Source: Roseivivax lentus (lineage in GTDB: Bacteria; Pseudomonadota; Alphaproteobacteria; Rhodobacterales; Rhodobacteraceae). Taken from it: a stretch of DNA of 64,000 bases. Made by a program: the position numbers and the translations under genes. Each line of letters opens with the position of its first letter. Position 1 is the stretch's first letter. The stretch is taken from contig NZ_FTOQ01000002.1 in the NCBI RefSeq assembly GCF_900156805.1, forward strand, positions 62,001 through 126,000. Reading direction: 5' to 3'. Under the pieces are notes generated by a model that was not told the DNA's origin, did not search any database, and saw nothing but the letters and a program-made list of their open reading frames with translations. Shown in pieces: positions 30,536 to 33,858 of this stretch.

Positions 30536-32110
30536 TCAGCTCACATCCTTGTAGCTGATTTCCTTGGCATCCGATCCCGGCCCCGCCTTGTCGCGGCGCA
30601 CGAGGAGCCGGTTCAGCGCGTTCACATAGGCCTTGGCGGAAGCGACAACCGTGTCGGTATCCGCCGACTGGCCCGTCGCGATCATTCCGTCCTCTTCCAG
30701 ACGCACGGACACCGTGGCCTGCGCATCGGTGCCTTCGGTCACGGCGTTCACCTGGTAGAGCTGCAGCCGCGCGGTGTTGGGGTGCAGTTCGCGCACCGCC
30801 TTGAAGGTCGCATCGACCGGCCCGTCGCCCTGGCAGGTGGCCGACACTTCGCGGCCGTCGATCTCCATCTCGAGCTCCGCCGTCGCGGGCCCACCCGTGC
30901 CGCATTGCACCGACAGGTTCACGATGACGAGCCGGTCCTGCTGGCCGTCCGCCGCCGTGGCGGTCACGAGCGCGAGGATGTCCTCGTCGTAGACCTCCTT
31001 CTTGCGGTCGGCGAGATCCTTGAAGCGCACGAAGACGTCCTTGAGCTGGTTGTCGCCAAGCTCCACGCCCAGTTGCCGCAGCTTGTCGCGCAAGGCCGCG
31101 CGGCCCGAATGCTTGCCCATGACGAGGTTGGTGGCCGCAAGGCCCACATCCTCGGGGCGCATGATCTCGAAGGTCTCGGCGTTCTTCAGCATGCCGTCCT
31201 GATGGATGCCGCTCTCATGCGCGAAGGCGTTCTTGCCGACGATGGCCTTGTTGTATTGCACCGGGAAGCCCGACACGGTCGCGACGCGGCGCGAGATATG
31301 CATGATCTTCTTCGTATCGATCCCGGTCTCATAAGGCATGATGTCGGAGCGGGTCTTGAGCGCCATCACCACCTCTTCGAGCGCGGTGTTGCCCGCTCGC
31401 TCGCCGAGCCCGTTGATGGTGCATTCGATCTGCCGCGCGCCGCCCTCGACCGCGGCCAGCGCGTTGGCCGTCGCCATGCCCAGATCGTTGTGACAATGGG
31501 TGGCGAAGATCACCTCGTCGGCGCCGGGCACGTCGGCGATGAGCCGCCGGATCAGATCGGCGCTTTCGCGCGGCGCGGTATAACCCACCGTGTCGGGGAT
31601 GTTGATCGTGGTGGCGCCCGCCTTGATCGCGATCTCGACGACCCGGGCGAGGTAATCCCACTCGGTCCGCGTGGCGTCCATCGGCGACCATTGCACGTTG
31701 TCGCAGAGGTTGCGGGCATGGGTCACCGTCTCGTGGATGCGGTCGGCCATCTCGTCCTGCGTCAGGTTCGGGATGGCGCGGTGCAGCGGCGAGGTGCCGA
31801 TGAAGGTGTGGATGCGGGGCCGCTCCGCATGGCGCACGGCGTCCCAGCAGCGGTCGATATCGGGCAGCTGCGCGCGCGCGAGGCCGCAGATCACCGCCTG
31901 CTTGGAGCGCTTGGCGATCTCGGAGACGGCGCGAAAATCGCCTTCGGAGGCGATGGGGAAGCCCGCCTCGATGATGTCGACGCCCATGTCGTCGAGCAGC
32001 TCCGCGATCTCGAGCTTCTCGGCATGGGTCATGGTCGCGCCGGGGGATTGCTCGCCGTCGCGGAGCGTGGTGTCGAAGATCCACACGCGGTCTTTATCGG
32101 TCGGGGTCAT
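30536..32110 (-). CDS. leuA: 2-isopropylmalate synthase
   Basis: This 524-residue enzyme catalyses the first committed step of leucine synthesis, condensing acetyl-CoA with 2-ketoisovalerate. The N-terminal TIM barrel starts with DTTLRDGEQSPGATM (metal and substrate residues) and carries the metal-binding HCHNDLGMATANALAAVEGGA. The C-terminal regulatory domain (about 390-510) is present, so leucine feedback is expected. It is preceded by a leucine-rich leader peptide gene at 32197-32286, indicating a second, transcriptional layer of leucine control. Confidence 0.95.
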   Translation of the reverse strand: MTPTDKDRVWIFDTTLRDGEQSPGATMTHAEKLEIAELLDDMGVDIIEAGFPIASEGDFRAVSEIAKRSKQAVICGLARAQLPDIDRCWDAVRHAERPRIHTFIGTSPLHRAIPNLTQDEMADRIHETVTHARNLCDNVQWSPMDATRTEWDYLARVVEIAIKAGATTINIPDTVGYTAPRESADLIRRLIADVPGADEVIFATHCHNDLGMATANALAAVEGGARQIECTINGLGERAGNTALEEVVMALKTRSDIMPYETGIDTKKIMHISRRVATVSGFPVQYNKAIVGKNAFAHESGIHQDGMLKNAETFEIMRPEDVGLAATNLVMGKHSGRAALRDKLRQLGVELGDNQLKDVFVRFKDLADRKKEVYDEDILALVTATAADGQQDRLVIVNLSVQCGTGGPATAELEMEIDGREVSATCQGDGPVDATFKAVRELHPNTARLQLYQVNAVTEGTDAQATVSVRLEEDGMIATGQSADTDTVVASAKAYVNALNRLLVRRDKAGPGSDAKEISYKDVS

Positions 32111-32165
32111 GGGATGTCTTTCGGATTGTGTCTGCTTGGGGCTTGGTCGGCGCGGGTCCCTATCT

Positions 32166-32203
32166 CCTCTGAGCGGTCGCGCCGGTCAAGGCACGCTCAG
32201 AGG
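32166..32203 (-). promoter_or_regulatory. Hairpin over the leader peptide stop codon, attenuator candidate
   Basis: CCTCTGAGCG (complement of 32194-32203) and CGCTCAGAGG (complement of 32166-32175) form a perfect 10-bp stem with an 18-base loop. The leader peptide TGA is inside the first arm, so a ribosome finishing the leader would open the stem, and one stalled at the leucine codons would affect it differently. No T-run follows the stem, so it is not a textbook terminator; Rho-dependent or processing control is possible. Confidence 0.6.
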
Positions 32204-32286
32204 CGGGTAAGCAGAAGGAGCAGGCCGAGCGACGCCGCCGCCCGGACGGGCGCGGTCGCGGAGAGGGTGTGGGTCGGCGTGCTCAT
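32197..32286 (-). CDS. Leucine-rich leader peptide of leuA (LeuL-like)
   Basis: This 29-codon open frame ends 86 bases before leuA and terminates in LGLLLLLTRL, so seven of the last ten codons are Leu (CTC, CTG and CTT). This is the classic design of ribosome-mediated attenuation leaders, and the amino acid matches the product of the pathway. A -10-like TATACC lies at 32295-32300 on the complementary strand, which would start the transcript at or within a few bases of the ATG (leaderless). There is no Shine-Dalgarno sequence. Peptide-coding use is inferred from composition, position and the hairpin; it has not been compared across species. Confidence 0.7.
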   Translation of the reverse strand: MSTPTHTLSATAPVRAAASLGLLLLLTRL

Positions 32287-32463
32287 GGGGCGAGGGTATA
32301 GGCGGGTTGGGGGCGAAAGGGAAGGGGGGATGTTGGGGGGCTTCTCTACCGCCTCGGCTATCGGGCCAGAGCCGACCTTCGTGCCAAGCTCGATAGATGG
32401 CCGGTCCCAGTCCGAAGCGGACACGCCCATCGTTGCGTCTCGCCGATTCTGGCTTTGTAACTT

Positions 32464-33537
32464 CTACTTTGGAGGCGAGTTATAGCGCTTTCTTAGTTCC
32501 TCGGTCCAAGTGTTCCATAGGTCGCATTTGGACAAAATTAGGAATCTTGCTACTTGCTGAACGTTATAGACCTCATAGGGCCCGAGACGGTTGGTCTCTG
32601 AAGAAAATGCGTGGGCAGTCATTTTGCTGCGTAAGAACTCGCAAAAATTGATCGCGTCCGGCACTGAAAGCTGACGATCTCGAACCTCAACTCCATCCGA
32701 ATGCTCCGAAAGCTGGTTGAGCATTTCATATATCGGCACTTCGGATTGATTACCACGGGTCACCCAATCAATCATTCTTTCCTGATCAACACCAGAATTT
32801 TGTAAACGAGCCTTTAAAGGCTCCAGAACCTTCGGGTTCCATAAAAAAGTCTTTTTTCCAATAGATCGCGGCACCTCCCGACTTGCTTTCACGCCGAGAT
32901 CAAGTTCTTCGGTGGCTGAATATGCAAGATTTATTGCCACAGACGTTCGCACATGCGAGGCGAAATCGCTGGTGTGTTTTTCAAACATCTGCCCATAACG
33001 AGGATGCATTGACCAAGGCGTTACACACTCGGTTTCGTAGCTCTTTGCCAACTTGTGAATGGCATATATAAGCTTCTTATCCTGCCAAGCTGCAGCAGCT
33101 ATGGCGACAGCGACCGGTAGCGTCTGACGGTAGGTAAACCATTGAAAGAAGCCATCGCGTCGAAAAACGTTCTCAAACGTTATTTGCCTATCTGCTTCTT
33201 TGTCAGAAAGCTCGAACCCGCAAGTGGGCGGGTTCTCGTTAAAGGGAAAACCCTCAAGAACGATATTCTCTGCGCAGACGAGTTGAATGATGTTGTCAAC
33301 TTCGGTTTGCTCTGCCTCCAACAGAAGTAACCTCCCAGGTTCTTGCCCTTTGTGGTGGACGCCAATATCCTTCAACGAACTGGCTTGGGATAATTCGGAT
33401 AGACCTCTTTCTGAGAAGGCATATCGCATCGATGGGTCGGAAATATCTTTTGAGCGCCAATTCGCAGCAGCGCAAACAGAATGAATCAAATCGATTTCGT
33501 CAGGTCTAAAGACAAGAAAGCTACAAAAAACTGGCAT
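32464..33537 (-). CDS. Orphan protein in a low-GC insert
   Basis: I do not recognise this protein. The start at 33537 (MPVFCSFLVFRPDEIDLIHS) gives 357 residues; the frame is open to 33666 but the upstream part looks non-coding. It has no signal peptide and no clear transmembrane segment, and is probably cytoplasmic and largely alpha-helical, with patches such as PVAVAIAAAAWQDKKLIYAIHKLAKSYE. The segment EFLRSKMTAHAF contains an R-x5-H spacing seen in HEPN RNases, but this is weak evidence. The gene and its flanks (about 32440-33700) are visibly A/T-richer with different codon use from every neighbour, which points to recent transfer. Confidence 0.65.
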   Translation of the reverse strand: MPVFCSFLVFRPDEIDLIHSVCAAANWRSKDISDPSMRYAFSERGLSELSQASSLKDIGVHHKGQEPGRLLLLEAEQTEVDNIIQLVCAENIVLEGFPFNENPPTCGFELSDKEADRQITFENVFRRDGFFQWFTYRQTLPVAVAIAAAAWQDKKLIYAIHKLAKSYETECVTPWSMHPRYGQMFEKHTSDFASHVRTSVAINLAYSATEELDLGVKASREVPRSIGKKTFLWNPKVLEPLKARLQNSGVDQERMIDWVTRGNQSEVPIYEMLNQLSEHSDGVEVRDRQLSVPDAINFCEFLRSKMTAHAFSSETNRLGPYEVYNVQQVARFLILSKCDLWNTWTEELRKRYNSPPK

Positions 33538-33858
33538 AATCCGCTTTCGACAAGGTAGCATAACGGTAACCATTTGGAGCCAGTTGTGTAAAGCGCGTCT
33601 CTTGCCCTTTGGGCCGTTCGTCCAAAGCGCAGCGAAAGACCGCTTCCCGCTCATCACGCTTGCCAACTGCCTCAGTCTTGGCTTATGCGAAGGCCATGAC
33701 GACCCAACACGACACCCGACGAGGCCACTAAGCCTCCGCCCGCCGCTCCGCGCCCCACGCGCAGCGGCCCGTGTATCCGTCCGTCATACCCTCACCACAA
33801 CTTGACTTGGCCCGGTGCCCTTGGCACCTCTTGGCCTTCCGTTCTCAAGGAGACGACC
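33538..33858. other. Region between the low-GC orphan and argD
   Basis: These 321 bases contain the likely promoter regions of the divergent orphan gene and argD. Composition returns to high GC near 33700, which marks the right edge of the insert. No open frame or repeat is convincing. A TTGACT sequence near 33803 could be a -35 element for argD, but I find no good -10. Confidence 0.4.

Follow-up and report, generated by a model that had tools for sequence, protein, structure and literature searches.

A conserved leucine leader element upstream of leuA in Rhodobacteraceae and other Alphaproteobacteria, probably acting by translational attenuation

The leuA leader locus

The window analysed here is a stretch of 64,000 nucleotides from Roseivivax lentus, and it carries leuA on its minus strand. 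The gene encodes a bona fide LeuA: the product matches the NCBIfam models NF002087 with 845.6 bits (cutoff 729) and TIGR00973 with 665.6 bits (cutoff 598.7), and contains the HMGL-like and LeuA_dimer domains of Pfam. It is preceded by a short leucine-rich open reading frame (ORF) and by a series of RNA segments with pairing potential, arranged as follows from 5′ to 3′.

32295..32300, minus strand: -10-like hexamer TATACC, read from the sequence, ending 8 nt 5′ of the leader ATG
32197..32286, minus strand: leader ORF of 29 codons plus TGA, translated as MSTPTHTLSATAPVRAAASLGLLLLLTRL, with the ATG at 32286-32284 and the TGA at 32199-32197
32209..32215, minus strand: 5′ arm of the base stem, UCUGCUU, within the run of leucine codons (pairing in the MFE fold; helix covariation)
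32194..32203, minus strand: 5′ arm of stem S1, CCUCUGAGCG, including the stop UGA (32199-32197) (stem scoring and covariation)
32178..32184, minus strand: 5′ arm of S2 (pseudoknot), CGGCGCG, in the S1 loop (coordinates read from the sequence; family-wide covariation)
32166..32175, minus strand: 3′ arm of S1, CGCUCAGAGG (stem scoring and covariation)
32148..32154, minus strand: 3′ arm of S2 (pseudoknot), CGCGCCG (coordinates read from the sequence; family-wide covariation)
32131..32137, minus strand: 3′ arm of the base stem, AAGCAGA, ending 20 nt 5′ of the leuA ATG (covariation; MFE fold)
30536..32110, minus strand: leuA, 2-isopropylmalate synthase, 524 aa (NCBIfam and Pfam matches)

The leader ends in LGLLLLLTRL, in which seven of the final ten codons specify leucine, and its stop lies 86 nt from the leuA ATG (32110). 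The frame itself stays open upstream, up to 77 codons when counted from 32430. S1 is formed by ten perfect pairs (32203-32194 with 32175-32166), the TGA being inside its 5′ arm. Apart from the longer open frame, these features had been described in an earlier note on this DNA, together with a TATACC that would place the RNA start at about the ATG, and all of them are present. Scans of the interval 31800-32600 gave no sigma-70 promoter by consensus and no terminator, and an intrinsic terminator in the window is therefore rejected. The whole window has no Rfam match at the gathering score, and 32080-32360 has none up to E 5. The folding energy of the leader (z of -2.35 and -1.94; of 200 shuffles each, 4 and 8 fold equally well) is by itself weak evidence for an element; the MFE fold of the window consists of S1, extended inward, and the base stem.

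Immediately upstream of the leader, the GC content falls to about 0.47-0.51, from about 0.64-0.71 in the surrounding DNA, and this AT-rich patch contains an ORF of 400 aa on the minus strand (32464-33666). Up to E 0.1 the ORF matches nothing in Pfam or PADLOC, and it was possibly acquired.

Distribution of the element

A search for LeuA in 61 genomes yielded at least 30 loci. A leader with its stop codon inside a stem precedes leuA in 29 of those 30, the stem being short or imperfect in L025-L027, while at the thirtieth (L011) the element of the genome sits further upstream. The covariance model R1 was built from 29 Rhodobacteraceae loci, the window sequence being among its rows. Of 295 family genomes, 286 give one match each with it (E 0.001 or better); in the 4.4-Mb genome of the window, itself represented in the model, it gives one strong match, at 8.9e-16. 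The second model, R2, was built from 29 rows all taken from outside the family, and its best match in the same genome is again the window element (E 1.2e-8). The single strong match of R1 and the choice made by R2 argue that the window element is not due to chance. The genome is judged to hold no second copy, the next matches reaching only 1.33 with R1 and 7.46 with R2. Among the nine family genomes missed by R1, laxer filters give weak matches in two (G150, 0.0084; G179, 0.72), and in G150 a leader-like ORF lies 118 nt 5′ of the LeuA motif.

At broader taxonomic scales, R1 matches 121 of 121 genomes of the order sample, all 121 being members of the family, and 7 of 289 in the class sample, where the three matches outside the family all lie directly before leuA. 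With R2, 88 of the 289 class genomes match (E 0.01 or better), a count that includes 28 model rows from sampled genomes, which match by construction, and four family genomes. In the phylum sample, 50 of 299 genomes match R2, all 50 in the class of the window, the share of other classes among the 299 being unspecified. Carriers include Paracoccus denitrificans, P. pantotrophus and Phaeobacter inhibens, and Methylobacterium bullatum in the Hyphomicrobiales.

The element was also recovered without recourse to the models. Upstream regions of 65 non-family leuA genes were fetched blind to the motif, and 22 contain a leucine-rich leader with S1 over its stop at a score of at least 20, as against 7 of 3250 shuffled sequences. 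When the leader is picked by its 5′ side only, one is found at 39 of 66 non-family loci, and S1 beats downstream shuffles (p<0.05) in 31 of these 39; the non-family class set comprises 65 of the 66 genomes with LeuA (G407 left out) plus L078. The family set started from 111 identifiers, of which 92 were kept. Those removed are five loci without a leader within 460 nt (four genomes among them have an intervening cupin gene), eight with leuA outside the fetched stretch, seven of which were refetched longer and read separately, and six identical ones. Two pairs of loci come from the same genome (L066 = L121; L011 = L187). L025 was excluded from the S1 table, from the swap tests of S1, S2 and the base stem and from the T-run counts, and was included in the locus-by-locus test of the base stem.

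The link with leuA is close. Downstream of 64 distinct R2 matches (of 90), a LeuA N-terminus occurs in the fetched stretch in 63 cases; the stretch fetched downstream of L341 (R2 E 0.006) is without one. Across the 66 loci examined in this way, among which L348 is an R1 match and L342 repeats L308, 65 have the LeuA motif, and at 58 of these the element precedes it by 81-319 nt. In three of the 63 cases (L333, L334 and L343), the leader precedes the other LeuA subfamily, and the two tested, both fragments, match NCBIfam NF002991 with 684.7 bits (L343) and 673.1 bits (L334), for a cutoff of 455. Occurrence of the leader before a second subfamily suggests that it follows function rather than gene descent.

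It is almost certain, whatever its mechanism, that a conserved leucine leader element of leuA exists. The conservation of ORF and stem in relatives, which the earlier note had proposed to check, is borne out in the family genomes by R1, and the counts in family and class do not support its view that such an element would be unusual.

Leader peptide and RNA pairings

Across the family, leaders are 26-30 codons long at 70 of the 92 loci, and at 73 the best -10-like hexamer, which reads TATAGT in 38, stops 7-8 nt short of the leader ATG. Leader starts were assigned to the in-frame start with the best nearby -10-like hexamer, so that both figures lean accordingly; despite this bias, they favour the 29-codon start in the window. 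The leader transcript is probably leaderless, as had been suggested earlier, the indication being the spacing of the hexamer.

Leucine accounts for 517 of the 920 residues in the final ten codons of the 92 family leaders, and 91 of the 92 have four to seven leucines there, at least three in the last nine having been required for acceptance. The endings are mostly SRL, TRL, IRL or TLR, and the remaining peptide is variable. Outside the family, 37 of 39 leaders have proline as the last residue before the stop and many read L-x-L-(I/S/T/R)-x-P, a C-rich last codon having been selected for. TnaC is known as a nascent peptide that stalls the ribosome at a stop codon, and in a comparable control the leader C-terminus would arrest translation at its stop, the ligand being leucine or charged tRNA. 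The terminal proline of non-family leaders would suit such a peptide, but it can be attributed to the CCCC arm of S1, and the endings and variability of the family peptides argue against stalling by a defined nascent chain, which makes this explanation very improbable.

Several minor features of the leaders can be added. Among the 517 leucine codons in the last ten positions of family leaders, 185 are CTT and 46 CTA; the 38 leucine codons of the window leuA include two CTT and no CTA. The hexamer CATATC, often encoding His-Ile, occurs at about +15 to +20 of the leader at 43 of 92 family loci, and the window reads CACACC (32266-32271) where family loci often have it. Many non-family leaders (for example L127, L155 and L165) end in L-R-L-x-x-P, with the RNA core CUNCGACUUA and fewer leucine codons.

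S1, its stop codon included, covaries. In swap tests, the downstream halves of loci chosen by their 5′ side only were exchanged, and the own halves pair better both outside the family (n=39; 24.1 versus 19.6 swapped; 0/1000) and within it (n=91; 27.0 versus 25.5 swapped; 0/1000). As these tests ignore shared ancestry, their zeros overstate significance, here as for S2 and the base stem. In alignment A2, which omits the dubious L149 (1 of 30), 97.2% of S1 cells are paired and 19 cells carry two-sided changes (0/500 shuffles); its rows were selected for S1, which inflates the paired percentages in A2 as in the S1 counts of the class. Compensatory changes in the stem, a check likewise proposed earlier, are thus found inside and outside the family.

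The stop codon itself takes part in this covariation. The 39 non-family leaders end in TGA (32), TAG (6) or TAA (1), and the partner triplets follow: TGA mostly faces TCA, TAG mostly TTA, and TAA likewise TTA. In the family, leaders were accepted only with the stop context TGAGC, so that invariance at this point is partly by construction. The occurrence of all three stop codons with compensated partners, together with the leucine richness, argues that the reading frame matters. This bears on the proposal made by Seliverstov et al. for an actinobacterial element, according to which a regulatory protein would bind the structure and the leader ORF would be incidental. The compact conserved structure would fit such binding, and passages of PMC1262725 name a candidate with a helicase domain, but neither the compensated stops nor the four to seven leucines in nearly every family leader would be expected from an incidental ORF, and a binding site of this kind is hardly probable as the explanation.

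A second helix, S2, joins the S1 loop to the RNA just 3′ of S1. In the family, pairs such as GGCGCG:CGCGCC, UGGGUGC:GCACCCG, UUGGUGC:GCACCAA and UCCGGGC:GCCCGGA are found, own halves score 20.6 versus 18.0 swapped (sd 0.28; 0/2000, shared ancestry ignored), and 51 of 91 loci are individually significant at p 0.05. The window has 7 bp. Among non-family Alphaproteobacteria, the same swap gives 752/2000 and leaves S2 unsupported, so that the pseudoknot is rejected as a class-wide feature. A hairpin within the S1 loop does better than S2 there, with 13 of 39 loci at 0.05; it beats shuffles at that level at none of 91 family loci and is rejected as a feature of the family. By these comparisons, the predicted H-type pseudoknot is a trait of the family, and S1 and the base stem range wider.

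The base stem pairs the leucine codons with the region preceding leuA. It was assessed by taking the longest Watson-Crick match between the leucine-codon core (12 nt) and up to 60 nt before leuA. Own combinations give 5.81 versus 4.72 in the family (n=90; 0/2000) and 5.0 versus 4.53 outside it (n=44; 0/2000), shared ancestry being ignored in both. Co-varying pairs include UCCUUAGC:GCUAAGGA, UCUUAGC:GCUAAGA, UCCUAA:UUAGGA, UUCUUACG:CGUAAGAA and, in the window, UCUGCUU:AAGCAGA. Locus by locus, the match is mostly not significant (<0.05 in 15 of 91 family and 9 of 44 non-family loci). It reaches at least 6 bp at 50 of 90 family loci, 24 of which show a Shine-Dalgarno-like motif, and at 14 of 44 non-family loci, three with such a motif. 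The window stem of 7 bp appears in the MFE fold, and its 3′ arm, 20 nt from the ATG, is without a Shine-Dalgarno motif. In three congeners (L006-L008) the match falls short of 5 bp, and in two of these 230 and 254 nt separate the stop from leuA.

A cupin gene lies between the leader and leuA at ten family loci (L064, L066, L187, L271-L277), which represent six genera, one genus contributing five of them. The cupin has 119 aa including the stop at nine of the ten loci, and the one tested matches PF07883. In stretches of equal length, the complement of the leucine run averages 7.0 before the cupin gene (a later start having been used in L277) versus 3.9 before leuA, as illustrated by the pair UCCUAAUC:GAUUAGGA, 8 nt before a cupin ATG. 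The cupin gene seems to have taken over the base-stem partner of the leader. The complement stays with the first translated gene, as control of initiation predicts. A role of the cupin in leucine synthesis is possible.

Mechanism and relation to known leaders

Judged from these patterns, the element is probably a cis-acting, leucine-sensing leader of leuA that works by leucine-dependent translational attenuation. When leucine is plentiful, the ribosome would read the leader to its stop and then depart, after which S1 and S2 would draw both ends of the element together. The leucine codons could then pair with the initiation region, and leuA would be poorly translated. Under a shortage of charged Leu-tRNA, a ribosome stalled on the leucine codons would keep the base stem from forming, and leuA would be translated. 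In such a scheme, a leaderless start and stalling on the leucine codons are presumed, masking of the start site would be the switch, and control would be exerted on translation initiation. Loss of mRNA via Rho or RNase would be secondary, as a possible effect downstream of blocked translation.

The earlier note had seen here a control of leuA by translation of the leader, on the model of trpL. The leucine leader peptide stands, but the base stem and the pseudoknot, neither of which that note had reported, point together with the ten cupin loci to control of translation initiation and not to transcription attenuation of the trpL type. Nor does the Rho-type or processing switch then invoked find support as a requirement. 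The missing T-run that had led to it is confirmed in the window: at least five T in the eight bases directly after S1 occur at one of 91 family and seven of 46 non-family loci, and directly after S2 at one of 91 and two of 46. A T-rich stretch anywhere between the stop and the LeuA motif occurs at 20 of 92 family loci.

Under transcription attenuation, completed translation of the leader would prevent S1, the S2 arms would pair with each other as an ordinary hairpin, and transcription would end before leuA, through Rho or at a hairpin lacking a U-run; stalling would allow S1 and read-on. The arms of S1 and S2 can indeed be read as regions 2:3 and 3:4 of a classical attenuator, the stop codon lies within S1 in a trpL-like layout, and the seven non-family loci with T-rich stretches directly after S1 would agree with termination. 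Against this stand the near absence of T-runs directly after S1 and S2 in the family, the lack of a terminator in the window and the lack of support for S2 outside the family, where S1 and the base stem persist; the tracking of the first gene's start by the complement of the leucine run would moreover be left unexplained. Transcription attenuation is consequently considered unlikely, and translational attenuation remains the preferred account. Should this account hold, a leader lacking both an intrinsic terminator and an Rfam match would govern the committed step of leucine synthesis across much of the class. The tying of stop codon, leucine codons and start region by pairing would also be an instructive overlap of coding and structural constraints.

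Among known systems, the anatomy is closest to that of an element of Actinobacteria. Passages of PMC1262725 describe an actinobacterial LEU element with a leader containing a leucine run, a pseudoknot, a base stem between the leucine codons and the Shine-Dalgarno box of leuA, an alternative hairpin and no obvious terminator. The present element is probably its alphaproteobacterial counterpart, to judge from the features compared. Both have a leucine-run leader ORF upstream of leuA, in the window as in the family, and a pseudoknot 3′ of the leucine run, which here concerns Rhodobacteraceae and is unsupported in other Alphaproteobacteria. A base stem of the leucine run with the Shine-Dalgarno segment is a possible further likeness: the pairing covaries and goes with the first gene, but the 3′ arm lacks a Shine-Dalgarno motif in the window, as do about half of the longer family stems. 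An obvious intrinsic terminator is missing from the window, and T-runs are missing from nearly all family loci (one of 91 after S1 and after S2). The two differ in that Actinobacteria are another phylum, that the alphaproteobacterial elements of the class mostly precede a different LeuA subfamily, that the stop codon lies inside the 5′ arm of S1 here and just after it there, and that the S1 and S2 sequences are not the same.

A retest on 63 anchored of 81 actinobacterial loci gives 20.0 versus 18.1 swapped for S2 (0/1000) and 6.08 versus 5.69 swapped for the base stem (1/1000). At the 27 of these 81 loci that were tried with the models, R1 matches the leader in 23 (E 1e-4 to 0.45, 11 of them at 0.01 or better) and R2 in 11 (E 0.0056 to 0.61). 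A broader reading, according to which one class of translational attenuators is common to Alphaproteobacteria and Actinobacteria and follows LeuA function over two subfamilies, the leucine codons serving both as sensor and as the strand that covers the start of the next gene, is tentative, with the balance slightly against it. Where leucine codons double as a pairing strand, changing them would alter sensing and start-site access together. This double role could reconcile the Streptomyces data: passages of PMC1262725 report leuA leader mutations as inconsistent with classical attenuation, and a binding protein was proposed there. If translational attenuation is the right account of the present element, the working of the actinobacterial LEU element becomes directly testable in easily handled laboratory species of Paracoccus, Rhodobacter and Ruegeria, because compensating mutations in the base stem and S1 need not touch the peptide.

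Other leaders share parts of this design. The leuA leader of S. lividans is described in portions of PMC8079986 as a leucine-run peptide of 15 aa on a leaderless transcript without a typical Rho-independent terminator, and portions of PMC4046766 place a leucine-run leader upstream of leuA in C. glutamicum; both resemble the present case in having such a leader before leuA and differ in belonging to Actinobacteria. In Sinorhizobium meliloti, trpL is a leaderless attenuator whose small ORF starts at the AUG, encodes 14 aa and yields an attenuator sRNA (sections of PMC10117765). It is, like the window leader, an alphaproteobacterial leader ORF, and is distinguished by tryptophan, by its 14 codons for amino acids and by the attenuator sRNA. 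Like the element, classical transcription attenuators have a leader enriched in codons for the amino acid that the pathway makes, and their terminator hairpin and U-run are missing in the window. E. coli leuL (L362) likewise encodes leucines before leuA, but it is followed by a GC-rich hairpin and a T-run, and up to E 10 it goes unmatched by both R1 and R2. Among the matches listed, titles and abstract openings of the literature contain none on an alphaproteobacterial element, a prior prediction in Vitreschak 2004 or Lopatovskaya 2010 being possible, and the element is not mentioned in the portions of PMC4833913 and PMC10272879 consulted.

Control leuA loci from Gemmatirosa, Deinococcus, Bacteroides, E. 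coli and Niallia have matches, if any, at E 0.4 or above with R1 and at 0.1 or above with R2. The best R1 match among them, at E 0.41, falls on the leucine-run leader of a classical-looking attenuator in Deinococcus, which indicates that a leucine run alone can score a little and that convergence with the actinobacterial elements is possible. In this strain, Deinococcus sp. NW-56, a short leucine-run ORF, MFSGLLLLPVPPVE, lies upstream of leuA (L360, 560-800) and is followed by a hairpin and a T-run, so that the leader is apparently a classical attenuator.
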